A DNA stretch of 39,247 bases from Bacillus sp. ISL-45 (GTDB taxonomy: Bacteria; Bacillota; Bacilli; Bacillales; Cytobacillaceae): positions 1-39,247 of the forward strand of contig NZ_JAGGQQ010000017.1 of the NCBI RefSeq assembly GCF_018613195.1. Reading direction: 5' to 3'. The translations under genes were made by a program, and so were the position numbers. The notes below the pieces were generated by a model. That model saw only the letters and a program-made list of their open reading frames with translations, was not told the origin of the DNA and searched no databases. Shown piece after piece: positions 7,152-31,103 of the stretch. Position 1 is the first letter of the stretch. Each line of letters begins with the position of its first letter.

Positions 7152-9364
7152 GCACTAACTTTCCGGATCATGAACTCCCAATACTTTTTCGCATCCTGCC
7201 ACATTTCTTCATCCATATCGCCGCGGTAAAGATACTCTTCATATTTTTCCGTTAGCCAGCGCATCTCGTTTGTAGAGAAGAATGAATCCACATAGTTGGC
7301 AAAGTCGCGCAATGTCTGGCCTTTCTCTCTCTTCAGGCCATATCTCCCTAGCTCTTTCAATAGGACGATATAGGCTTTCTCCAAGTACTTGTTTTGCTTT
7401 TTGTACTTATAGAGAAGGATATACACGATAGGGAGCCATTTTCCTCTCAATCTATATGAGATTGCGGTGAACACAGCAACTACGAGTAATGTGAGGAAAA
7501 TCTTCTGCAGGTTATCCTTCAGGAATGCTTCTGCATTTTTCAAGCCTTCTGAAAAAGAGGCCTCTGGCTTACCGACCATTGCCTGCTCCTCTGGCAGTTC
7601 AGGCTTCACCGGAGCTGCTGGTGTTGTATCTTCCTCTTCTCCTTGGCCCGTTTGGTTTTGTGAGCCATTTTTATTGTCATACTCAAATTGAACGTTATTT
7701 GAAAATCCTTGCGTCGGCTCAAATGGCACCCAGCCGACACCAGGGAAATAACCCTCTACCCATGAGTGGGCATTGTTATTGGTAACCTCATAAAGACGGC
7801 GGCCATTCCCTAGTGTATCGATATATTCACCTTCTGTATAACCCTTTACCCATCGCGCTGGAATGCCGACGGAGCGCATCATGACAACCATCGATGTTGA
7901 GAAATTGTCACAGTAGCCGCGCTGTGTTTCAAACAGGAATTGGTCGACATAATCCTGATCTTCATCTGGGATTGCCACATTCGATTGATCATAGACAAAT
8001 TCGTTCGACCGGAAGTACTTTTCAATCGCCTGTGCTTTTTCCAGCCACGTCCCTTTGTCTTTCGTAATCTCCTCGGCAAGCTCAACTACCCGCTCCGGAA
8101 GCTCTTCAGGTACCTGTGTATATTTTGAGAGAAAGGCAAACTCTGCTTCCACCTCTTCAGGTCCGGCTGCCTTAAGCTTTTCTACACTGTAGACCGGGTG
8201 ATCAAAAGTAAGCGAGTATGGTCCAATCGAACCCGCTTGTCCATCCGCCATTGACATAATTTTTTCGGTTGTCGGATCAAGGCTGAATTGGAGCGAGGAT
8301 TGCCCCGCAGATGCCTTGACTTGTGTCACCCCCAACGGATAGACAAGGTGAGGATAACCAATCTTGGGGATAACCTTGCTCGTCCGCTGTTCCGTTTTGA
8401 CTTCTTCTTCAAAAGGCTGCATCGGGATGGTCTGCTCAGGTGAAAATTCCACTGGCACAGCAGTCCCCTTGTCTGTAATCCACCCTTTACCTGTATAGAC
8501 GTCTTTGGTCTCGATCCGCCAGTAATGACGACCATCGGCTTCCGCAGTAAAAACGACCCGATCGTCTCCGATGAACGGCCCGCCAAGTGCGGAATCATCC
8601 GTTCCGTAACCGATTTTTTTAACCCCTCCGCCGCCTTCACCTGAATCCTCATTATATGAGGTGATGAACGGAACAGGGTCCGGCCAGATTGGGTCAGCCT
8701 TCGGGGCTGCATAGCCAATCCCTACGCTCAGGACAATCATGGCGACTAGCGGTACCATCCACCTTTTCGCACTTTTCAGGTTCTTATTTATCTCTTCCTT
8801 ATCTGCAATCCGGTAATACGCCAGAATCCCCATCACAGCAAAACCCGCAATCACGGTCCGGACGATCGCCAGGTCTGCTTCATAAGGAGTAAACGTATCC
8901 AGTACCGTAATATAAACGAGAGTCATGAAGAAAAACACGAAAATTTGTTTCCTGTTAATCAGCCAGTATTGAATCAGGTATGCCATCAGCCAAAGCAAGG
9001 TGAAAAACAGCAACGTCCTGAACACATTGGAAATTTCGGTCCATTCTGCATTCATGATAATCCCTGAATTAGCGACAACCTCATTGAACAACTGGCCAAA
9101 CCACTCCAGGCTAAAGAAAGTTCCCTCATAATACATAAAGTGGACGGAATATAGGATAATGATAATTTTTATGATAGATGACGGAAGAAACGGCATATTG
9201 AAGTAGAACATCATCAATGAAACAAACACAAAACCGAGAAACACACTTAGGTGTCCGGTATCTGTCAGTTCCTTCAATGGCCGAAGCCACTCCCACAGCA
9301 GCAAAAAGCTGAAAATATATAGCAAAAAGAAAGTGATGTCTTTTTTTGGATTATCGTTCCTCAA
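7148..9364 (-). CDS. yebA: Membrane transglutaminase-like protein (YebA/TgpA type)
   Basis: 738 residues. The N-terminal third has about six to eight membrane segments; an extracytoplasmic segment carries the transglutaminase core with C485 (RGYCDNFS) and H533 (NAHSWVEG), the acidic position being E in PFEPTQG; one further membrane segment and a cytoplasmic tail follow. Start is TTG at 9362-9364, overlapping the TGA of yeaD and preceded by GGAGGTGA. Third gene of a MoxR-DUF58-transglutaminase operon, a conserved trio linked to envelope functions; the substrate is unknown. In B. subtilis the same gene also lies next to guaA. Confidence 0.9.
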   Translation of the reverse strand: MRNDNPKKDITFFLLYIFSFLLLWEWLRPLKELTDTGHLSVFLGFVFVSLMMFYFNMPFLPSSIIKIIIILYSVHFMYYEGTFFSLEWFGQLFNEVVANSGIIMNAEWTEISNVFRTLLFFTLLWLMAYLIQYWLINRKQIFVFFFMTLVYITVLDTFTPYEADLAIVRTVIAGFAVMGILAYYRIADKEEINKNLKSAKRWMVPLVAMIVLSVGIGYAAPKADPIWPDPVPFITSYNEDSGEGGGGVKKIGYGTDDSALGGPFIGDDRVVFTAEADGRHYWRIETKDVYTGKGWITDKGTAVPVEFSPEQTIPMQPFEEEVKTEQRTSKVIPKIGYPHLVYPLGVTQVKASAGQSSLQFSLDPTTEKIMSMADGQAGSIGPYSLTFDHPVYSVEKLKAAGPEEVEAEFAFLSKYTQVPEELPERVVELAEEITKDKGTWLEKAQAIEKYFRSNEFVYDQSNVAIPDEDQDYVDQFLFETQRGYCDNFSTSMVVMMRSVGIPARWVKGYTEGEYIDTLGNGRRLYEVTNNNAHSWVEGYFPGVGWVPFEPTQGFSNNVQFEYDNKNGSQNQTGQGEEEDTTPAAPVKPELPEEQAMVGKPEASFSEGLKNAEAFLKDNLQKIFLTLLVVAVFTAISYRLRGKWLPIVYILLYKYKKQNKYLEKAYIVLLKELGRYGLKREKGQTLRDFANYVDSFFSTNEMRWLTEKYEEYLYRGDMDEEMWQDAKKYWEFMIRKVSA

Positions 9365-10578
9365 CCTCTATTCACCTCCGAGAAGGCTTCCGCGAACTGT
9401 CCGTCATGTACCATAACAAGATGGATTCCCCTTGCATTGGCCGAGGCTCTTAAATTTTTCTCCGTATTCGCCAGGGATTCCTGACGATTCTTGACCAGGA
9501 AAATGCTGACTGATCCGTTCCGTTGATTATAGAAGGCAGCTTTTTCAATCAACTCTTTTGTCAATTGTGCGGTTATCAGCATGATGGAATTGTTCTGCTG
9601 CGCTAAAAAGCTCTCTGCCTCAAGGACCCGGTTAAACGGGACTGGGGACTCATCCCGGATTTTAGCAAGATGGTAGAGCAACTGTTGCTGCTGACCTTCA
9701 CCGCCACGGGCAGGAAATGCCTTTCGCTCAGCACTTAGCGTCAATAAGCCTACCTGCGCGCCTTTTCGTAAAATCGCCCTGATGACTGAAGCAGTGAAAG
9801 ATACGACAACTTCAAAGCGCGGTTCAGGGGCACAGTCCATCAGAACGGTCACATCATGCGATTGCCTCTGTTCGAATTCCTTTGTCATAATGTCATTCCG
9901 CCTTGCAGTCGCCTTCCAGTTAATCCATGAGAACCGGTCTCCCGGCTGGTATTCACGGACACCAATAGCCATTGAAGTATCACGCTGGACACGCTCCTTC
10001 GAGGCCGTCATCCCCTGGTCAAAATGATGGGCGGCCGGCCTGTAAACCATATCCTGATACGCAGGATAAACCAGAATCTTGTTTTCAACCGGCAGCAGCT
10101 TTTCTTTTTCAATTAATCCGAGCGGATCCCCCGTTTTAAACTTGATGCCCTGTAATGTATGCTCACCGCGAGGAAGGTTTTCAATCGAGTAATCAAAGCC
10201 GAATACCCGGTTGAATCTTGGAAACAGCATAGTCCTCGCCTTTTGCAAATCCCGATGACCGGAAAGTGTATCCCCGACCACTTCTTCGCCAATCGCATAA
10301 AACAGCGGGAATATCCTTTTCCTTTCAAGTATGATGCTGGCTTTGAACTTCTCTCCAGCGTTAAATTCCTGTTTCGTATACACCCTTTCCGCCTTGATAT
10401 CTTTTATGGAATAAAAAGCGAGGCCTAATGCATACAGAGCGAATGGCAAGAAGCTGTAAAACAGGAACCAGCTGACAAATCCGCCCTGGAACATGGCATA
10501 AGAAAAGGTAATCAAAATCAACAATAGTAAAACGATGAGCTTCCAAACTTCTTTGAACTTTTGGAAATATTTTTTCAT
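9361..10578 (-). CDS. yeaD: DUF58 membrane-anchored protein YeaD
   Basis: 405 residues with two close N-terminal hydrophobic segments (about 10-55), then a soluble region with the DUF58 hallmark (GDRFSWINWKATAR) and a vWA-like fold. DUF58 proteins partner MoxR AAA ATPases. It starts 1 bp after the yeaC stop (TAATATG context) and overlaps the yebA start, so the three are translationally coupled. The biochemical role is not established. Confidence 0.88.
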   Translation of the reverse strand: MKKYFQKFKEVWKLIVLLLLILITFSYAMFQGGFVSWFLFYSFLPFALYALGLAFYSIKDIKAERVYTKQEFNAGEKFKASIILERKRIFPLFYAIGEEVVGDTLSGHRDLQKARTMLFPRFNRVFGFDYSIENLPRGEHTLQGIKFKTGDPLGLIEKEKLLPVENKILVYPAYQDMVYRPAAHHFDQGMTASKERVQRDTSMAIGVREYQPGDRFSWINWKATARRNDIMTKEFEQRQSHDVTVLMDCAPEPRFEVVVSFTASVIRAILRKGAQVGLLTLSAERKAFPARGGEGQQQQLLYHLAKIRDESPVPFNRVLEAESFLAQQNNSIMLITAQLTKELIEKAAFYNQRNGSVSIFLVKNRQESLANTEKNLRASANARGIHLVMVHDGQFAEAFSEVNRG

Positions 10579-21252: not shown

Positions 21253-23496
21253 TCAATACGATATTCCCGTTCTTGTATGTGTTTTTTCAAACTCGGCCAT
21301 ATTGGGATCAAAATACTTTTCATCGTATTTTGCCACAAACTTGCCATCATCTACATACCCGGAACCCCAGGTCGGATCCATGGTGATCCATTCACCGTCA
21401 ATTTTGGCTTCGACCCACGCATGTCTTGAAGGCCACCAGCCGCCGCGGGCCATGCCTTCAACGAACCGTGATTCAATATCGCTCGCTCTCAATAAAGCAA
21501 TTGCCAGCTAAGAATAGTCCTGGCAGACACCTGTTTTTAAATCAAGTGTTTTCAGTGCGCTATCATCCCACTCAAAATCATCCGTCTCCAGCTTTTCAAC
21601 ATCATAGGCAACAGTTTTGGCTACATACTCATAGATTGATTTAGCCTTATCCCTCTCCATGCTCTTTCCTGCGGTGATTTCACTTGCCAGCTGTCTGATC
21701 GGCTCTGAGTCGGATTGAACGCCCCTTGATGGCAGCAGGTCGCGCTGATCTTCACCTGTTGATTCAACCTCGAAGCGGGCAAACCCGTAAAATCGGAAGT
21801 AATCACTATTTTCTTCTTTTATCTCAGGCACGCTAAGTATAACCTCATATGTTCCGGGACCGAACCGCAGATAAAAGGAGTCATCAAATGTAAAGTCCTT
21901 AACCGGTATGACATCTAACGCTTCATCTTCTCCCTTTTTAGTCGTGATATAGATATGTGTTGTTTCTGGACCAAACTCGGCACTAGGATCAATTTTCCCT
22001 TTTATACTGTACATTCCATCCGTCTCTTCTCCGCCATCCAGGGGACTCGAGAGTAACGCCGCGCTCTAGGTATTGATCCATATACTCAATCGGCAGCATC
22101 GTCTTGTCTGACTCATTATCAATTAAAATAGTCGTAGCCGTCTGGTAGTAATTCTCACGTTCTTCATCCGGAACGAGAACCTCGAGTTCATGGACACCTT
22201 TACCGTAAAATAAAGGCACGTCATAGCTGAATTTGCCATCCTTGATCGGCATAATATGCTTCCAGCTCTCCATATCCTTAGTCAGCTGAAGCATGACGGT
22301 ATCTTCATCTGTCAGATTTCCAACTTCCCCTTCCAATCTAAAAAACTCGTTTTCTTTCACATAGCCAGATTCCATATCCAGCGCAACTTCCGCCTCTTGG
22401 CCAAACGGCGTCAGCACAAGATCACGCTGAATTTCAGGATTCACATTGTAGACATCAAAGGCGGTCGCTTCAAAATAATAATTCTCCGTTTCATCGCTAG
22501 GGATATGGACACTCACATGGTACTTGCCTTCCCCATTAAAAAAACGAATTGTCTGCTTGTACTTCCCATCCTTCAGCTTAGCGTAGTACTCATGCTGCTG
22601 TCCCGCAGGCCCTTCTTCATCTGCCGATACTTTGATCAATATATAATCCGACATCAAAGAAGAAAACTTGTCAATCTTCCCTTCGACAACAACCTTCCCG
22701 TTGACCGCGAATTCTTTATGCTCCGGACTGGAAAAAGTGGAGCCAATCTCCCCGGCATAGGAACCCAGTTCAAGCGGCTGAAGCTCAAGCTCCTTGTTTT
22801 TTTCCTTCACCAGCTTTTTGTATTTATCCTCTTGTTTCTTCTCAGCCTTTTATATTGACCCTTCCGTTCTGTCACGACATAGATGCGAAAATCCTCGGGG
22901 ATAAATGTCATTTGTTTTATTTTGTCATTCTGGTTTTCCTTTGCGAATTTTTCTGCTTCCTTACGGGCATCCGTCAAATTGTCCCTGACCGCCTTGCAGG
23001 CAATATCCCTAACGCCATCGTCATCAAAGAAGAACTTCATGGCTGTCTTTGCTTTGACTTCGACAGAATGATCCAGGATCCAGCTGAGCATATCGCCAGG
23101 CATATTCCGGCCATCATAATTGTCTTCCATCATTTCTACAAACTCTGCTAATAGTTCACTTTCAGAAGGAGGCGGCGGTGGTTCCTCTCCTTCCGCAGGA
23201 GGCTCTGAATCTGCAGAATCCTCCAGGAACTGTTCCCAGGCTTCTCCTAATGCATCCAGCTCTTCCTGGGTTTTCTCCTGCAGCGTTTCCTTCATCGTGT
23301 CCTTGGAGGACTTTGCCGCCGCCAAGGCCGCTGAGTCAGCGCCTGTTTGGGTCACCCGCTTATTAATGAATACATTTGAGAAATCAAAGAACATCAAAGC
23401 TATGAAAATAGCAGCTATAAGCATGCCAACCATGATGATCAGCATGCCGCTGCCTCTCTCGTTGTTAAGATAGTTTTTTAGATTCTTAATCGTCAT
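21253..23496 (-). pseudogene. Broken TadG-like surface protein with transglutaminase domain
   Basis: Three consecutive reading frames join into one ancestral protein of about 745 residues. Segment 1 (23496 to ~22850) begins with an ERGSGM...MLIIMVGMLIAAIF TadE/TadG-type membrane anchor and a Pro/Glu-rich linker. Segment 2 (to ~22041) has beta-rich Ig-like repeats. Segment 3 carries transglutaminase motifs GVCQDYS, then HAWVEA and MDPTWGSG. The lesions are a -1 shift in an A run near 22849, an extra C in the CCCC run near 22041, and an in-frame TAG at 21508-21510 right after the catalytic-Cys motif. GGAGGAAG precedes the ATG at 23496. Originally a secreted, membrane-anchored protein. Confidence 0.8.
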
Positions 23497-23744
23497 CCGG
23501 TTCTTCCTCCATTGGCATCACTGCATCCATCGCAAAGGAGAATTTCATTTCCGAAATCAGCGGAAGGGCCACGATTGGCGCCTGGACCTCCACCTTAACC
23601 CTGGCTTCATCAGAACCAGGACCACCTGATATATTTATAATTTTTACGCCATAGGCCGACTTTTTTGTGACATTTTCCCAGTCAGGATCATGTACAGAAG
23701 CTGCCCTTGCACCATCCCGGGCAGCCGATTCTGCTGCGTCTAAA
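23486..23744 (-). pseudogene. TadE-like pilus-assembly protein, 5' end lost
   Basis: About 85 C-terminal residues remain: ESAARDGARAASV resembles the small-residue helix-adjacent segment of TadE-type pseudopilins, followed by a beta-rich domain ending in EEEPDDD. The stop overlaps the ATG of the next Tad-like gene (23496), so the pair was translationally coupled. Upstream of about 23745 the reading frame passes without interruption into an unrelated P-loop protein, so the promoter, start and membrane anchor are missing. Confidence 0.7.
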
Positions 23745-24535
23745 TATATGACTTGATTGCTCCTAGATAATTGTTCCACATCACTTTCATCCTCAGGCGG
23801 GCGAAACGCTTCAAAGGCTAACCTTGTTTTACCTAAACCTGATAATCCTATAATTCGTGCAACCTTTCTAACACCAATAAAATGGCTTCTTAATTGAGAG
23901 ATATTAGAATCATTTGTATCATCCAAAACGTATGTGTAGTTATTTTCTTGATAACCACTCCACTCTTTCCAAGTCTTTGCACCATTCGGTAAGTGTTTAC
24001 CAACCCATTTCTAAACAGCAACAACCGCTGAAATTGATTCATTTGCCCAAGCCGCAATTTTACCAGCATCATAAATATGAATACATACGGATACGCTATC
24101 TACTTGTAGCGTAGACTCATCGATAGCTTTTCTAAATTGATCAATCCTCATCTGCTGTTGTTGTTCATTTAAGGTCTGATTATGGAAGAGAATATATGCT
24201 CCTTCCTCTTCTATTACTTCCTTAACCATTGGCTTGAGTTCTCTAGTGCTTGTTAATATTTCATCTTTACATTTCGAAGGAGGCATATCTGTTGCTTTGC
24301 ATTGAAACAGCGTAAATCGTTTTGGAAGCCAATTTGTTTTATCTATTTCTCCGGCCCATTTTATCCTTCCATCTTCACCACCATCTGGGACAGTAATATT
24401 AAGAGCTACTCCAACAGAATTAGCCGAAATCCCCCACTTTTCAGCTTCAAAGTACAACAACATTGATAATAGTTCTGTTAGTTGCCGATCCGATAATTTC
24501 TCTATATCCGTATTATCAACTCTTAAAAATTCCAC
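23745..24535 (-). pseudogene. Truncated nuclease-NTPase (PD-(D/E)xK/Mrr-like plus P-loop), defence-like
   Basis: It starts at ATG 24535. Residues about 1-130 contain VPDGGEDGR and FTLFQCKATD, a D...QxK arrangement typical of Mrr/PD-(D/E)xK nucleases. An in-frame TAG sits at 24011-24013; the same frame continues as KWVGKHLPNGAKTW and on to Walker A GLSGLGKTRLAFEAF. About 30 residues later it merges in frame into the TadE-like remnant, so most of the NTPase and sensor parts are gone. The plan fits STAND/Avs-like or other nuclease-NTPase defence proteins, but the family is not proven. AT-rich compared with flanking core genes. Confidence 0.65.
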
Positions 24536-24561
24536 TTTACTCTCCCCTTATTTGCGAATGA

Positions 24562-25134
24562 TTAATTCTGGACTATATAAGAAGTTCCAGTTTTTAAGCG
24601 ACCCTTTCTGATTTCCCCAGTTTGAGTATTTCTTACAACTTCCCTCAAATATTTTTGCATATTGGGATTTGTAGCATATACATAACAACCATTTATACCA
24701 CGTGACAGTAGTACGTAGTAAATACGTTTGATATAAGACTTTAATTCTTCATTGTTCATGTCAGTTCCTTTAATAGGAAGACCATTACGGTCTTTATATT
24801 TTTCAGGATTAACTATGATGTTTGCTTTACTTAAATCATAGCTGTCATCATCTTCACCAGCATAATCACAATCAATTTCCTCTCCCAATATAACACCAAC
24901 ATAATTTAGATCTGCACCTTGGGTAGTATGAATACAACCTATTTCTTCAACGCTATTTTCTAGGTTAATCCAACCTTTCGTTTTTGAGTTCCACTTAAAT
25001 TCATCACCTGTAATAGGATCTGTTATATCATGCAGATTTGCATCTTTTTGTGTAGCCCACTCCCAAGAAAAAATACGGACTATTAGGAATTCAACATCCC
25101 GAGGATGGACAAGTGAATTCTCAAGCTCCCGCCA
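24562..25134 (-). pseudogene. C-terminal fragment of a DUF2075 (schlafen group 3-like) DNA/RNA helicase
   Basis: An open frame without a plausible start runs from a stop at 25135-25137 to 24562. It contains VRIFSWEWATQKD, EEIGCIHTTQGADLNYVGVI, SYIKRIYYVLLSRGINGCYVY, the C-terminal helicase motifs of DUF2075 proteins (common in defence islands). The N-terminal motor with Walker A is missing. The frame ends where it meets the oppositely oriented CGNR gene. It lies 26 bp upstream of the nuclease-NTPase remnant on the same strand, probably once one operon. Confidence 0.75.
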
Positions 25135-25759
25135 TTAAGGCAACCTTGCAACCAAAATTCATATTTAATAACTATGGTTTTAGTGTTTTTGAGCCTATTG
25201 AATTATGGCAATGGCATATAAATGAAGTAAAAAAAATTTTAAAATTATATAATGCCGTCAGAAAAGGCAGTTCTGATGAGGTGATGTACAAAATTATTGA
25301 AATTAAAATGCATAGTGGAATGTTCGGAAGTCTAGCTGAGGATAGAACGATATCAGAAAGGTATTTTGTTCATTGGACCGATGGGGAAGCATTTCCATGT
25401 TACCTGAGTACCTAGAAGATAAAGACATACTCGAAATTGCGCAATATGCATTAGCCAAAGTTCTTGAGTTTCATATATCAGGAGGAATTAATATAGGTGT
25501 CGATGACCTTATCTCAAATCCTTCAACTAAAGGATTTAGGATTACAGAAAAAAGATATACTCGTTTTTTGCTTGCTGCAATTTATTATGAACTATGGCAA
25601 ACGATCAACGATGCTAAGAATGTGTACCTTTGTGAAAATAAGAAGTGCAGGAACCCCTTTGTAAAATCTGGACGTAAAAAAAAATATTGTAATGAGGCCT
25701 GCAAGCAAGGAGCATACAGAACTCGTTTAGAAGAAAAGGAAGGGAGAAATAACCTATGA
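25113..25759 (+). pseudogene. CGNR zinc-finger protein, frameshifted and probably 5'-truncated
   Basis: The first frame (25113-25415) reads IEIKMHSGMFGSLAEDRTIS... and the second (25373-25759) continues with YLEDKDILEIAQYALAKVLE and the C-terminal zinc finger CENKKCRNPF...KKKYCNEAC. Together they match the ABATE/CGNR plan. A one- or two-base indel near 25398-25405 splits them. The 5' end abuts the DUF2075 fragment, so the native start is likely lost. It overlaps the integrase start by 4 bp. CGNR proteins are putative regulators. Confidence 0.7.
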
Positions 25760-26967
25760 GTTATATATATAGACCACGTTGTAAATGTAATAGCAAGAAA
25801 TGTAAATGTGGAGCAAGTTGGGCATACATTGTCGATGTAGGGAAAGACCCTAAAACCGGCAAACGTAAACAAAAGAAAAAAAGCGGTTTCCGGACGAAAA
25901 AAGAAGCTGAAACAGCTGCCTCTATTCTTGAAAATGAAATAAATCAGGGCTTCTATGTTAAAGAAAGTGATATGACATTTGAAGACTTTGCTTACGAATG
26001 GTTATCCCTTTATGAAGGAACTGGGATTGTCAAAGTAAGCACTGTACGAATCCGAAGACATGAAATTAAACGGTTATTGGACTATTTTGCTAAGCTAAAA
26101 TTAAAAGACATCAGCAGAAGGCAATATCAAAACGCCTTAAATGATTTAAAGAAAAGAGGATATGCTCAGAACACAATTGACGGCGCCCATCGAACGGGCC
26201 GAATGATCTTTAAAAAAGCAGTAGAATTAGAAATTCTAAAAAAAGACCCAACTGAGTATACTCAGGTTCCTAAACAGCAAAAAACTATTGAAGAGTTGGA
26301 GGGACAAAAAAGGTTACCAAAATATTTAGAGAAAGAGGAACTAAAGCACTTCCTCCACATAGCAAAAAAGTTTGGAATAGACCAAGATTATCCAATCTTT
26401 TTATTACTGGCATATACCGGTGTACGTGCAGGCGAACTCAGCGCCCTTAAGTGGCGTGATATTGATTTTGATAAACACACAATAAGCATTTCAAAAACAT
26501 ATTACAATCCAACTAACAACAGAAAAGAATACATGCTTTTAACCCCAAAAACTCCAACAGCGGTACGGATTATTGATGTTGATGAAACTGTGATTAATGA
26601 GCTAAACAAGCATAATTTAGCTCAAAAACAAACAATTATGAAGCATCGAGATATTTACCATAATAATGATTTTGTTTTTGCAAGCATTGATGAGGAACTA
26701 CCTGGTTACCCGCTTTATATAAAAAAAATAGAGAACCGCATGAGACGTTTATTAAAAATGGCAGAATTAAATCCTGAGCTTACGCCACATTCATTACGTC
26801 ATACTCATACATCTCTTTTAGCTCAGGCAGGTGTAAGTCTTCCACAAATAATGGAACGATTAGGACACAAGGATGAAGATACAACAAAAAATGTATATCT
26901 ACATGTGACCAAAGAGATGAAAAAAGAGGCTTCCCAAAAGTTCAAAAAGCTTATGGAAAACCTTTAA
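25756..26967 (+). CDS. int: Tyrosine recombinase (phage/ICE-type integrase)
   Basis: 403 residues, full length. Catalytic residues are visible: R224 (TGVRAGE), H345 and R348 (HSLRHTHTS), H371 (LGHKDED), nucleophile Y381 (NVYLHV). The N-terminus has a Cys cluster (C9, C11, C16, C18), then an arm-binding domain and a SAM-like core-binding domain (about 72-170). Start ATG overlaps the CGNR stop. It is followed by its own terminator. Its last 44 bp are duplicated at 28483-28526. No excisionase, relaxase or phage gene is visible, so it may be a relic able to act only in trans. Confidence 0.95.
   Translation: MSYIYRPRCKCNSKKCKCGASWAYIVDVGKDPKTGKRKQKKKSGFRTKKEAETAASILENEINQGFYVKESDMTFEDFAYEWLSLYEGTGIVKVSTVRIRRHEIKRLLDYFAKLKLKDISRRQYQNALNDLKKRGYAQNTIDGAHRTGRMIFKKAVELEILKKDPTEYTQVPKQQKTIEELEGQKRLPKYLEKEELKHFLHIAKKFGIDQDYPIFLLLAYTGVRAGELSALKWRDIDFDKHTISISKTYYNPTNNRKEYMLLTPKTPTAVRIIDVDETVINELNKHNLAQKQTIMKHRDIYHNNDFVFASIDEELPGYPLYIKKIENRMRRLLKMAELNPELTPHSLRHTHTSLLAQAGVSLPQIMERLGHKDEDTTKNVYLHVTKEMKKEASQKFKKLMENL
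26920..26963 (+). repeat. 44-bp direct repeat, left copy (integrase 3' end)
   Basis: Integrase codons for KKEASQKFKKLMENL. It matches 28483-28526 at 42 of 44 positions. Candidate attachment-site or recombination repeat. Confidence 0.85.
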
Positions 26968-26991
26968 TAAATTTAGAATTTCACAAATAAT

Positions 26992-27016
26992 AGAGCTCAG
27001 ATTTGAGCTCTTTTTT
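26992..27016 (+). terminator. Integrase terminator
   Basis: GAGCTCA / TGAGCTC hairpin followed by TTTTTT, 25 bp past the integrase stop. Confidence 0.85.
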
Positions 27017-27069
27017 GGCTTTACAGAATGTGGGATTATCCAGCTCCCTTTCCCTGGAATAAAAATATT

Positions 27070-27519
27070 TTACCAATCCTCTAATTCAAATAGTTTTATA
27101 ACCTTTGATGCATCGTCATCTTCACCACTTTTGTACAAACATACATGATTTTCATCTACTGGGGAAATAAACAAAGAACATCGTTCAGTGTCGCTCATTC
27201 TACCTTCTATGCTACTTACATGTTCGTTAAACTCACCAATGTACTCCCATTCTCCATTTTTTTCGCGGTGAACTTTTACTACGAAATTTGCATCGTGTGT
27301 CCTCCTCGACCTTTTCTGATCGTGTTTGCCTGGCTCAAGTAGTGACTCAAGACTTTGCCCTTGGTCTGTATCATCACTCCATGTTAGGAATAGAGTTCTT
27401 CCATATTTCTCGTCCTTTCTATTAGTATTATTAGTAACAATTAAATATTGCCGAGGACGTCTAGTGTCCCACAAGGGTTCAGTTTTTGTTTTTTCTAAGT
27501 TATCAAATATGTTATCCAT
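27070..27519 (-). CDS. Hypothetical protein, 149 residues (cassette gene 2)
   Basis: No family recognised. It is a soluble, charged protein (FDNLEKTKTEPLWDTRRPRQ near the start, FLTWSDDTDQGQSLE, acidic C-terminus ELEDW) with no signal peptide or membrane segment. ATG follows GAGGAGC at ideal spacing. It lies 48 bp downstream of the duplicated-domain gene on the same strand, so the two form an operon between the 44-bp direct repeats. A functional partnership with that gene is inference from layout only. Confidence 0.75.
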   Translation of the reverse strand: MDNIFDNLEKTKTEPLWDTRRPRQYLIVTNNTNRKDEKYGRTLFLTWSDDTDQGQSLESLLEPGKHDQKRSRRTHDANFVVKVHREKNGEWEYIGEFNEHVSSIEGRMSDTERCSLFISPVDENHVCLYKSGEDDDASKVIKLFELEDW

Positions 27520-27567
27520 AAAAAGCTCCTCATTTCTATATTATTTGTACAACAAGAATTACAGAAG

Positions 27568-28248
27568 TTATTCAAAATAAATAGTAGCGCTCCAAGTTCC
27601 ACCACCATGTTTGCAACCATATGTTCCGGTGACTGTTTTACCATCTTCGCCAATGGTACCTGTGTATTCACAATCATTACCATCACTACTAAGTCCCCTG
27701 TAAATAGTAACAACGTTACCATGTCGATAAACTTTTAAAACAGCAGTTACATTTGGATGGCCGGTTTGTGTCCAAGTTGCATGAAATTTATTTGGATCAT
27801 CTTCCGATTTTTCCCATTTACCGCTCCATCCCATTTCCTCTTCGATCCAATATTTTCCCACATCCGTTTCCACCCAATGAATAGTTGCTTCCCAAGGACC
27901 TCCATCTCCGTCGTGATTATCACAATTAAAATGTCCTGATGCTGTTTTACCATCATCAGCAATTGTACCTGTGTAGTAACAATTATTATCATCACTGGAA
28001 TTTCTTCTTTGAATGGTTATATCATTATCATTTATTTCCATGGACAAATTAGCAGTCACTATCTCACCCCTACGTCTTGTCCATTTTGCAATGAAGCGGT
28101 TAGAGTCTCCCATTCTTCGCCATATACCAACCCAATCACCTTCATGCGTATGCCATTCGTTGCCTAAGTCCATAAGTTGTTCATTCTGTCCGGAAAACGA
28201 TACAGAGACCATATTATCGTTGTTCTGTATAGACTGTTCCAATTTCAT
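27568..28248 (-). CDS. Hypothetical protein with two tandem beta-rich repeats (cassette gene 1)
   Basis: 226 residues from ATG 28248, which follows AGGAGGTG; the longer frame lacks a ribosome site. Two homologous units (about 32-125 and 134-226) share W..W, F.A.WT, C.YTGTI..DGKT..G...C and a final W.ATI. Each unit has two Cys (90 and 109; 193 and 212). No signal peptide, so cytoplasmic unless exported another way. The fold is probably a small beta-barrel or sandwich; function unknown. It leads a two-gene operon inside the repeat-bracketed cassette and is AT-rich. Between 28249 and 28482 there is only upstream DNA without a clear promoter. Confidence 0.78.
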   Translation of the reverse strand: MKLEQSIQNNDNMVSVSFSGQNEQLMDLGNEWHTHEGDWVGIWRRMGDSNRFIAKWTRRRGEIVTANLSMEINDNDITIQRRNSSDDNNCYYTGTIADDGKTASGHFNCDNHDGDGGPWEATIHWVETDVGKYWIEEEMGWSGKWEKSEDDPNKFHATWTQTGHPNVTAVLKVYRHGNVVTIYRGLSSDGNDCEYTGTIGEDGKTVTGTYGCKHGGGTWSATIYFE

Positions 28249-28482
28249 ACCCGTAAGCACCTCCTGAATAAGAAAATTCTGCCGTTTATTTATTATCAAC
28301 AATAGATTGTGCAATGCATTAATAAGTTATTATTCATTCCTTTAAAGTCTGTCTATTTGTGAATTAAATGCGGAGCCTTTCTGGCAGAAAACTATTATTT
28401 TTCTGAATAACATACCATTGGATCATATCTATCCTTAGTCTGTTTTCTATAAAAATCTTGTTATTCAAACTCCAGAAGAAAT

Positions 28483-28526
28483 AAAAAAGAGGCTTCCCAA
28501 AAGTTCAAAGAACTTATGGAAAACCT
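28483..28526 (+). repeat. 44-bp direct repeat, right copy (orphan integrase tail)
   Basis: It reads KKEASQKFKELMENL followed by TGA, i.e. the end of an integrase gene whose body is absent. Two substitutions relative to 26920-26963. The following 28540-28580 carries GTTACC twice and one inverted GGTTAC, which could be recombinase-binding sites. Confidence 0.85.
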
Positions 28527-28599
28527 CTGATTTAGTCCTTATTCAAGAAAATGTTACCCTTTCGTTACCCATAGGTTACTAACCGGGTATCATAGGTCC

Positions 28600-28621
28600 A
28601 AAAAACCCCGAATGTATTGGG
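28600..28621 (-). terminator. Weak terminator of groEL
   Basis: On the minus strand a short CCCAA/TTCGGG-type stem is followed by GTTTTTT, about 15 bp after the groEL stop. The stem is only about 5 bp with a bulge. Confidence 0.45.
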
Positions 28622-28636
28622 ATTATAGGTGCATGA

Positions 28637-30280
<1,644 letters not shown>

Positions 30281-30318
30281 TCAGAATTTTAATTTATATT
30301 CACTACACCCTTGTTAGT

Positions 30319-30434
30319 GTCTAGCTCCAGCGCCTAGTCCCTCGAGACGCTTCGGTCCTGCCAATGAAGTCAAAGAACGACTTCACTGTCAGGCCCTCCA
30401 GCGCTTGTCGGACCTGACCAAGGCGCTTCCGCTT
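30319..30434 (-). repeat. Dispersed structured repeat, copy C (between groES and groEL)
   Basis: Reverse-strand copy of the element at 13999-14112 with all three nested arms. It occupies most of the groES-groEL gap, inside a co-transcribed operon, so it must be present in the bicistronic mRNA. Confidence 0.88.
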
Positions 30435-30436
30435 TT

Positions 30437-30721
30437 CTATTCCACTACTGCTAGAATGTCGTTTTCACGTAGGATCAGGTACTCAGTTCCCTGGTACTTT
30501 ACTTCTGTGCCTGCGTATTTTGAGAAGATAATGCGGTCTCCGACTGCAACTTCAAGAGCAACACGCTCGCCGCTTTCAAGAACTCGGCCAGTTCCAACAG
30601 CTACGACTTTACCTTCTTGAGGTTTTTCTTTCGCTGTGTCTGGTAAAACGATACCGCTTGCAGTTTTTTCTTCAGACTCAACAAGCTCGATAATAATGCG
30701 ATCTCCTAGTGGCTTGATCAA
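30437..30721 (-). CDS. groES: Co-chaperonin GroES (Hsp10)
   Basis: 94 residues from a TTG start at 30719-30721, placed 9 nt after AGGAGG; the product then begins M-IKPLGDR, as in other GroES proteins. An in-frame TTG at 30739 would make the Shine-Dalgarno site itself coding, so I reject it. The mobile loop ([12 protein letters not shown]) and GKVVAVGTG are present. It caps GroEL. First gene of the operon, with promoter and CIRCE operator upstream. Confidence 0.97.
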
Positions 30722-30761
30722 GTGAAACAACCTCCTCAAATTATATGTAGATTATTTTTTA

Positions 30762-30788
30762 TTAGCACTCGCCTCAATAGAGTGCTAA
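30762..30788 (-). promoter_or_regulatory. CIRCE operator (HrcA-binding site)
   Basis: Perfect TTAGCACTC-N9-GAGTGCTAA inverted repeat between the groES promoter and start codon. HrcA repression of class I heat-shock genes is established for this element. Confidence 0.98.
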
Positions 30789-30798
30789 CACAATTTAT

Positions 30799-30827
30799 AT
30801 AATAATGAATCTCCATTTTTTTTGCAA
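30799..30827 (-). promoter_or_regulatory. groES-groEL promoter
   Basis: Minus-strand TTGCAA (30822-30827), 17-bp spacer, TATTAT (30799-30804), 10 bp upstream of CIRCE, so HrcA would cover the start site. The 30828-31103 gap otherwise holds the upstream region of ydiL with no clear gene. Confidence 0.8.
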
Positions 30828-31103
30828 GCGTGAAGCCTAATTTTTTTTATAAATTTTAGCATTATAATCCGGCCTCTTTCCCTTCGACAGCATGTACTAT
30901 TTTTCACCTATTTGCGGGAACCTGGCTAAAAAAGACCACCCTAAAAAGTATGCCAGTTCACAGGAATTTTAACCAAAATATTCACGAGACACCCTGATAT
31001 TTGAACTTTCCCGATGATTACTAGTAAAATGGATAGATAGCATTCTTATAATAGCTTTTATGGCATACACATAGACCGATCCGAATAGAAGGAGATTATC
31101 ATA

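Follow-up and report, generated by a model that had tools for sequence, protein, structure and literature searches.

The window analysed here is a 39,247-nucleotide stretch of the Bacillus sp. ISL-45 genome (contig NZ_JAGGQQ010000017.1, positions 1 to 39,247), in which a cassette of two small genes lies between a tyrosine integrase gene and the host gene groEL. The integrase is an open frame of 403 residues with arm-binding, SAM-like and catalytic domains (Phage_integrase, 5e-27; Arm-DNA-bind_4, 1e-17; phrog_1, 4e-80). The cassette DNA has a GC content of about 35-38%, lower than the value of about 42-49% found towards groEL, and holds two minus-strand open reading frames (ORFs) between two directly repeated copies of the integrase 3′ end. 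From the integrase to groEL, the features are:

25756 to 26967, plus strand: tyrosine integrase gene.
26920 to 26968, plus strand: left repeat copy, the 3′ end (last codons) of the integrase gene, with a weakened antisense hairpin.
26992 to 27011, plus strand: terminator-like hairpin for the integrase transcript, a consensus match only.
27070 to 27519, minus strand: cassette gene 2, an ORF of 149 codons with no family match.
27568 to 28248, minus strand: cassette gene 1, 226 residues from its likely start, with two repeats of about 95 residues.
28483 to 28531, minus strand: right repeat copy, an integrase tail without a body and likely groEL terminator (strong hairpin and T run).
28552 to 28559 and 28563 to 28570, plus strand: two direct repeats, TGTTACCC and CGTTACCC, likely arm sites presumed to be bound by the integrase.
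28604 to 28624, no strand: imperfect dyad between the arms and groEL, seen by eye, in relatives too.
28637 to 28654, plus strand: core of the attachment (att) site, which is the groEL 3′ end including the stop codon, placed by junctions in relatives and present as a single copy in the window.
28637 to 30265, minus strand: groEL, host gene and integration target (ORF and genus comparison).

An earlier note on this DNA had described the flanks of the cassette as a direct repeat of the integrase 3′ end, and this description holds. Positions 26920-26963 match 28483-28526 with two mismatches over 44 bp, where two matches are found in the window, none in 100 shuffles, and 0 are expected. Ungapped, the repeat runs to 49 bp at 92% identity, and to about 55 bp with two single-base gaps. 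The right copy is, as was also noted earlier, an integrase tail without a body, and the integrase tail of Paenisporosarcina indica is identical to it over 44 bp. At the two differing positions the closest integrase tails side with the right copy, and among the 13 other tails listed, 12 have two fewer mismatches to the right copy than to the left (the single exception, that of G061, has one fewer), which places both changes on the left copy. Folding on the groEL strand gives the right copy a stable hairpin of -28.6 kcal/mol (z -6.3) with a run of T residues behind it, while the antisense fold of the left copy is weak (-14 kcal/mol, z -2.4). The earlier note had missed this hairpin, and also the arm-like repeats (28552-28570). 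These repeats lie to the right of the right copy, and the same motif stands to the left of the core by the nearest undisplaced integrases. A scan of positions 23000-31000 with Rfam returned nothing at the gathering threshold.

Related elements provide the empty state of this arrangement. The earlier note had proposed looking for genomes in which the integrase is joined directly to the sequence after the second copy, and this is what is found in all six relatives compared: Peribacillus cavernae (whose integrase is 93% identical in protein to that of the window, with a broken frame), Bacillus sp. OV166, a Halobacillus sp. (L174), an Alkalihalobacillus macyae metagenome-assembled genome, P. indica and Fictibacillus barbaricus. 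Here, the piece of the window ending at 26963-26969 and the piece starting at 28473-28476 share one stretch, overlapping by 52-60 bp. The groEL gene is inside the fetched locus in five of the six, with the core only in the Halobacillus locus. Because both repeat copies map to one stretch in each of the six, the cassette together with one tail copy is the added state.

The placement of integrases of this family beside groEL was followed in three sets of genomes. Within the genus, a groEL-side probe matched 20 of 21 genomes, and the region downstream of groEL was read in 19 relatives of the window. Full-length integrase relatives stand at groEL in two of these 19, G019 and G015, the latter with a tandem pair whose members are separated by a DUF3800 protein (L041:13258-17163); partial integrases are seen in G018 (a 104-residue C-terminal piece), G003 (a 28-residue match) and G008 (a relic, by eye). 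In the wider family set, integrase relatives occur in 50 of 193 genomes at E <= 1e-60, and 52 further stretches were fetched from it. A scan of GTDB genomes yielded 80 named loci, which belong to Bacillaceae, to Paenibacillus and to further Bacillota, with one integrase counted per locus. The integrase lies within 260 bp of the core in 62 of these (52 with groEL in the locus) and is displaced from it by 0.8-4.7 kb in 7, while 8 have neither a nearby core nor groEL and 3 stop at a contig end. Typically, about 75-130 bp separate the end of the integrase gene from the core. Separately, G003, G006, G007, G008 and G012 carry integrase-tail-like hairpins behind groEL with no integrase, several of them with arm-like repeats.

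The core itself is defined by junctions in relatives. At the left end of the G019 element, an integrase-tail relic is followed by a groEL end with its stop codon and then by the element; in G003, groEL follows directly on the same relic. At least two core copies, marking element junctions, are present in 12 of 152 loci, one of which (L219) has an N beside the copy, a possible assembly effect. In Geobacillus phage GBSV1 (L300) the core lies 93 bp behind the integrase and is followed by non-groEL sequence, and among viral loci with enough sequence the core is within 160 bp of the integrase in 17 of 39. No copy of the core is found between the integrase and the cassette of the window. Since the junctions of relatives sit at the groEL end, and the window has no core between integrase and cassette, the 44-bp repeats are not attachment sites, and no att-mediated circle between them is predicted. 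An assignment of the bacterial attachment site (attB) to the groEL terminator was dropped, as these same junctions put the core at the groEL end.

If the repeats are not attachment sites, what is the doubled sequence for? For 112 distinct integrase ends, we folded the antisense strand of the final 18 codons, setting each against 60 synonymous recodings. Among ends within 260 bp of the core, 81 of 84 fold better than at least 95% of their recodings (mean -20.9 kcal/mol, versus -6.3 kcal/mol for recodings), and the last codons of these integrases are thus constrained as nucleotides. Ends far from the core beat their recodings in 3 of 20 cases (L218, L244 and L248), all with tails of the core-proximal type. 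From sequence, we infer that the tail hairpin would end groEL transcription. Similar tails are present on family integrases with other integration sites, for example in the viral contigs L265, L270, L275 and L281, which have no nearby groEL core, so the tail device may extend beyond groEL to other target genes. As a separate observation, the tail of the upstream integrase in tandem pairs (G015, G072, G079, G137, G070 and others) is of another kind, with a GAAAGC...GCTTTC hairpin behind it, and these upstream genes mostly do without the groEL-side type of antisense hairpin.

The window is one of eight slots with one or two genes between integrase and core, the others being G019, G037, L183, L200, L211, L221 and L237; L218 and L248 (which show tandem or relic signs) and G047 were left out of this group. 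All eight have their main cargo on the minus strand. This cargo is an Abi_2/AbiD protein in G037 and L237, a SMEK_N protein with an Aga-REase-like PADLOC match in L200, a PIN_12 protein in L211, and an S8 protease (weak subtilase/IetS matches) with a small DUF2129 ORF in G019, while three of the eight (the window, L183 and L221) have cargo with no family match. PADLOC matches are present in four of the eight. A hairpin separates cargo from arms in all eight (z -2.7 to -5.7). In all eight, too, the arms beside the core resemble by eye those of the nearest undisplaced relatives of the displaced integrase, exactly or nearly so in six. Tail duplication beyond that of shuffles is found in the window, G019 and L183, and outside the eight slots in L218, L248 and L219.

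We interpret the cassette as cargo of a single element, made up of integrase, cargo, arms and core, that sits at the groEL 3′ end and has its integrase tail doubled, and we give this reading a probability of roughly 0.7. The locus would be the right half of a decayed integrative element of phage or satellite type. Core recombination uses the last codons and stop codon of groEL, as the junction copies in relatives show, and the last codons of the integrase, read on the opposite strand, would act as an intrinsic terminator, so that integration would give groEL a new one. Cargo between the integrase and the arm sites would be transcribed in the direction of groEL, with a hairpin separating the two. 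In the window this hairpin is the second copy of the integrase tail, and the left copy, presumably less needed as a terminator, has drifted. In essence, the tail would be doubled because it doubles as the groEL terminator, and the cassette would be a two-gene cargo module inside the element and not a separate att-flanked unit. A place inside one element is more likely because the groEL-proximal arms are of the kind found in the clade to which the displaced integrase belongs.

The window shares with groEL-end elements a tyrosine integrase of the family adjoining groEL and a core formed by the groEL 3′ end, with arm repeats beside it. No second core copy (the left attachment site, attL) is present at the far end in the window. 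To the left of the integrase, the remaining features are:

25113 to 25759, plus strand: integrase-proximal gene with a broken frame, a single frame in L172 and L173.
24562 to 24888, minus strand: C-terminal remnant of an SLFN-g3/DUF2075-type helicase (PF09848, 1e-7, profile positions 296-353 of 354).
23735 to 24535, minus strand: remnants of a PD-Lambda-4 A-like defence protein (E 8e-20 over profile positions 3-167 and 9e-5 over 220-255 of 1283).
23486 to 23734, minus strand: 3′ portion of a TadE-like host gene, joined to the PD-Lambda-4 A-like remnant, with a likely deletion junction at 23734/23735.

The second part of the integrase-proximal gene has weak CGNR zinc finger and PHROG matches. 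The ORF at 23486-23926 joins a PD-Lambda-4 A-like fragment to the host TadE-like tail; the match to the relative G011 stops at 23734, with the TadE protein 98.8% identical from residue 65. The junction is likely the scar of a deletion that removed both attL and the left part of the element. Among the ORFs of 23486-28637 we recognised no divergent regulator pair of the phage-inducible chromosomal island (PICI) type, no xis and no pri/rep module, although no search aimed at these hallmarks was made and the left part of the element is lost. The element is probably immobile, since it lacks attL and has broken genes next to the integrase and cassette, which alone keep full frames.

Several observations weigh against this single-element reading. 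The arm match is near and not exact in L200 and L211, and the nearest relative of the L183 integrase has no arm motif. Tail duplication exceeds shuffles in only three of the eight slots and is therefore not a general signature; in L237 it equals the best shuffle and no more, and there is none in G037, L200, L211 and L221, where another hairpin serves. Five of the eight displaced integrases keep a significant antisense hairpin (mean -11.9 kcal/mol), so that the loss of constraint is only partial. Two displaced loci outside the group of eight are not explained by one-element cargo: the arms of L218 are unlike those of its nearest relatives, and L248 has an arm behind its left integrase as well and appears as a tandem relic. 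The insert of G047 is an ISL3 transposase beside a decayed integrase. Furthermore, the junction at 23734 may reflect a chimeric contig instead of a deletion. The relatives of cassette gene 1 have the appearance of normal chromosomal genes, an argument against a dedicated defence role.

A different history, which we consider unlikely, is that of two elements in tandem. The first, next to groEL, would have lost its integrase body and kept the tail (as groEL terminator) and the arms, while the second, inserted upstream, would have lost its own arm and core, with cargo remaining in between. The successive insertions that the earlier note envisaged do occur in relatives: two integrase ends are present in 18 of the 80 GTDB loci (counting fragments and the doubled end of L219), tandem elements are seen in G015 and in G089, where core copies lie between them, and L248 offers one such relic. 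Bodiless integrase tails are found in G003 and G008, and in the window weak similarity extends a few bases upstream of the right copy. However, neither an arm nor a core is left behind the integrase of the window, so that this history needs at least two deletions in the window and as many in every one of the other seven slots. In addition, the arms agree with the displaced integrase in all eight slots, those of the window included, though selection for mobility could likewise cause this fit. As a general explanation the tandem history is weakened by the arm comparison, and we retain it as a rival.

Rather improbable, in our estimate, is that the cassette genes are host genes, related to the spore or surface and not to the element, that were caught between integrase and groEL by rearrangement. 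Relatives of gene 1 occur in 13 of 192 other family genomes, and all 12 neighbourhoods read lie outside the groEL locus, several of them sharing neighbours, with no integrase of this family in the fetched stretches. These relatives have Tyr/Pro-rich N-termini, which resemble those of coat proteins. The gene 1 protein of the window, however, lacks such an N-terminus and is just 29-45% identical to its relatives, and none of the 20 other genomes of the genus has a relative of it; moreover, the position, strand and right-hand hairpin of the cassette agree with the seven other cargo slots.

That the 44-bp copies are att sites from which the neighbouring integrase excises the cassette is highly improbable: the cassette does stand beside an integrase and between direct repeats, but the junctions of relatives lie at the groEL end and not in the repeat, the cassette has no core inside, and four of the eight comparable slots have no tail repeat at all.

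Two known kinds of mobile unit were also considered and set aside. A cis-mobilizable element (CIME), an att-flanked unit without a recombinase, does not describe the cassette, as the core does not flank the cargo on both sides. The integrase is not of the integron type (IntI-type profile TIGR02249, 56 bits versus a cut-off of 265); as to cassette arrays, hairpins bound the cargo in all eight slots, and no slot was read with more than one module. As a separate observation, G018 has a 2-kb unit between two core copies (oriented locus 8242-10295), with three small ORFs and, of the integrase, only the 104-residue C-terminus.

A broader idea, which we consider doubtful, is that cassettes can be exchanged in the stretch that separates the integrase from the att arm. 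Each module would come and go with its terminator hairpin, in part through recombination of duplicated tails, under the single rule that groEL keeps a terminator, and the integrase tail would have evolved to code on one strand and stop a host gene on the other. The comparison of G037 and L237 (AbiD-like cargo 54% identical, integrases 45%) was not decisive for cargo exchange, as common descent in the slot would look alike.

The cassette proteins themselves match the earlier description: the cargo is small, belongs to no recognised family and adjoins an integrase at a core-gene hotspot. In profile searches, both stay short of the curated Pfam and NCBIfam cut-offs, and no PADLOC defence model matches either of them; below threshold, the gene 2 protein (149 residues) matches SURF2 (E 0.005) and the gene 1 protein phrog_4821 (E 0.017). 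A search of solved structures, with gene 1 alone and with profiles of both genes, gave no useful match, all E values being between 0.33 and 1.6. The gene 1 ORF is open from 28314 (27568-28314, 248 residues), with the ATG at 28248, behind a GGAGGTG seen by eye, as the more likely start. Its repeats are rich in conserved Trp, Gly and Cys. Among the rows for its relatives, 11 of 13 have weak matches to DUF4156 (best 4e-4) and 10 of 13 to DUF3617 (best 1e-3), while the gene 1 protein of the window matches neither. Gene 2 has one relative in 192 other family genomes, the C-terminal part of a 287-residue protein of G134 (40-41% identity over about 130 residues). That gene (L169:5881-6744) adjoins an ORF resembling, by eye, a serine recombinase. 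Searches found no relatives of gene 1 in named phages and plasmids, and none of either gene in viral contigs. A cassette promoter is unsupported, since the five sigma-70-like matches are fewer than the 6.3 expected by shuffling.

With low confidence, we suggest that the cassette may be a module for phage exclusion or defence. Cargo with a defence or fitness role, as put forward in the earlier note, is suggested by the location and by the company in the other slots, half of the eight with PADLOC matches, and finds nothing in the two proteins themselves. Otherwise, the two genes would most likely be linked to the host surface or to the spore, the role to which the relatives of gene 1 would point.

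The kind of element, its integration at groEL and the carriage of defence cargo by phages are already known. Staphylococcal PICIs (SeCISE48) integrate at the groEL 3′ end, where the att site takes in the final 18 bp of groEL and integration leaves the gene unaltered (PMC8125051). Tyrosine-type integration at this gene end is thus shared, while the integrase here, unlike theirs, is a phage or satellite type found across Bacillota; the part of that report available to us makes no mention of an integrase tail as groEL terminator, or of cargo between integrase and att. Hotspots of P2, P4 and Bacillus prophages hold about 1-5 kb of changing, often anti-phage cargo between conserved parts, one Bacillus hotspot being near the integrase (PMC9122126). 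These lie between conserved genes (by the cos site in P2 and P4), whereas the slot described here runs from the integrase stop codon to the att arm, with a host-gene terminator as its bound. Staphylococcus aureus pathogenicity islands (SaPIs) similarly carry accessory genes at element ends or near int; the positions given are the element's 3′ end and the stretch from int to stl, on the other side of int from the slot here (PMC6092414). In PICIs at the fis end, the att identity block spans the gene end and stop codon, as here, and can reach into the rho-independent terminator behind; that terminator belongs to the target gene end, while the one proposed here is encoded on the opposite strand of the last integrase codons (PMC10111431). 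Phage GBSV1 (record H21) has an integrase 52% identical to that of the window and the same core in the phage attachment site (attP), and differs in being an isolated phage with its integrase 93 bp from the core and a slot without cargo. In the literature searched, to which subscription journals largely did not belong, we found no description of this layout or of an integrase tail terminating the target gene.

If the tail really terminates groEL, these elements cope with insertion behind an essential gene by carrying its terminator within their own coding sequence. Small cargo could then be sought simply by reading the DNA from the stop codon of an integrase to the att arm. It would also be clear why integrase tails persist behind groEL after the rest of the element has been lost.

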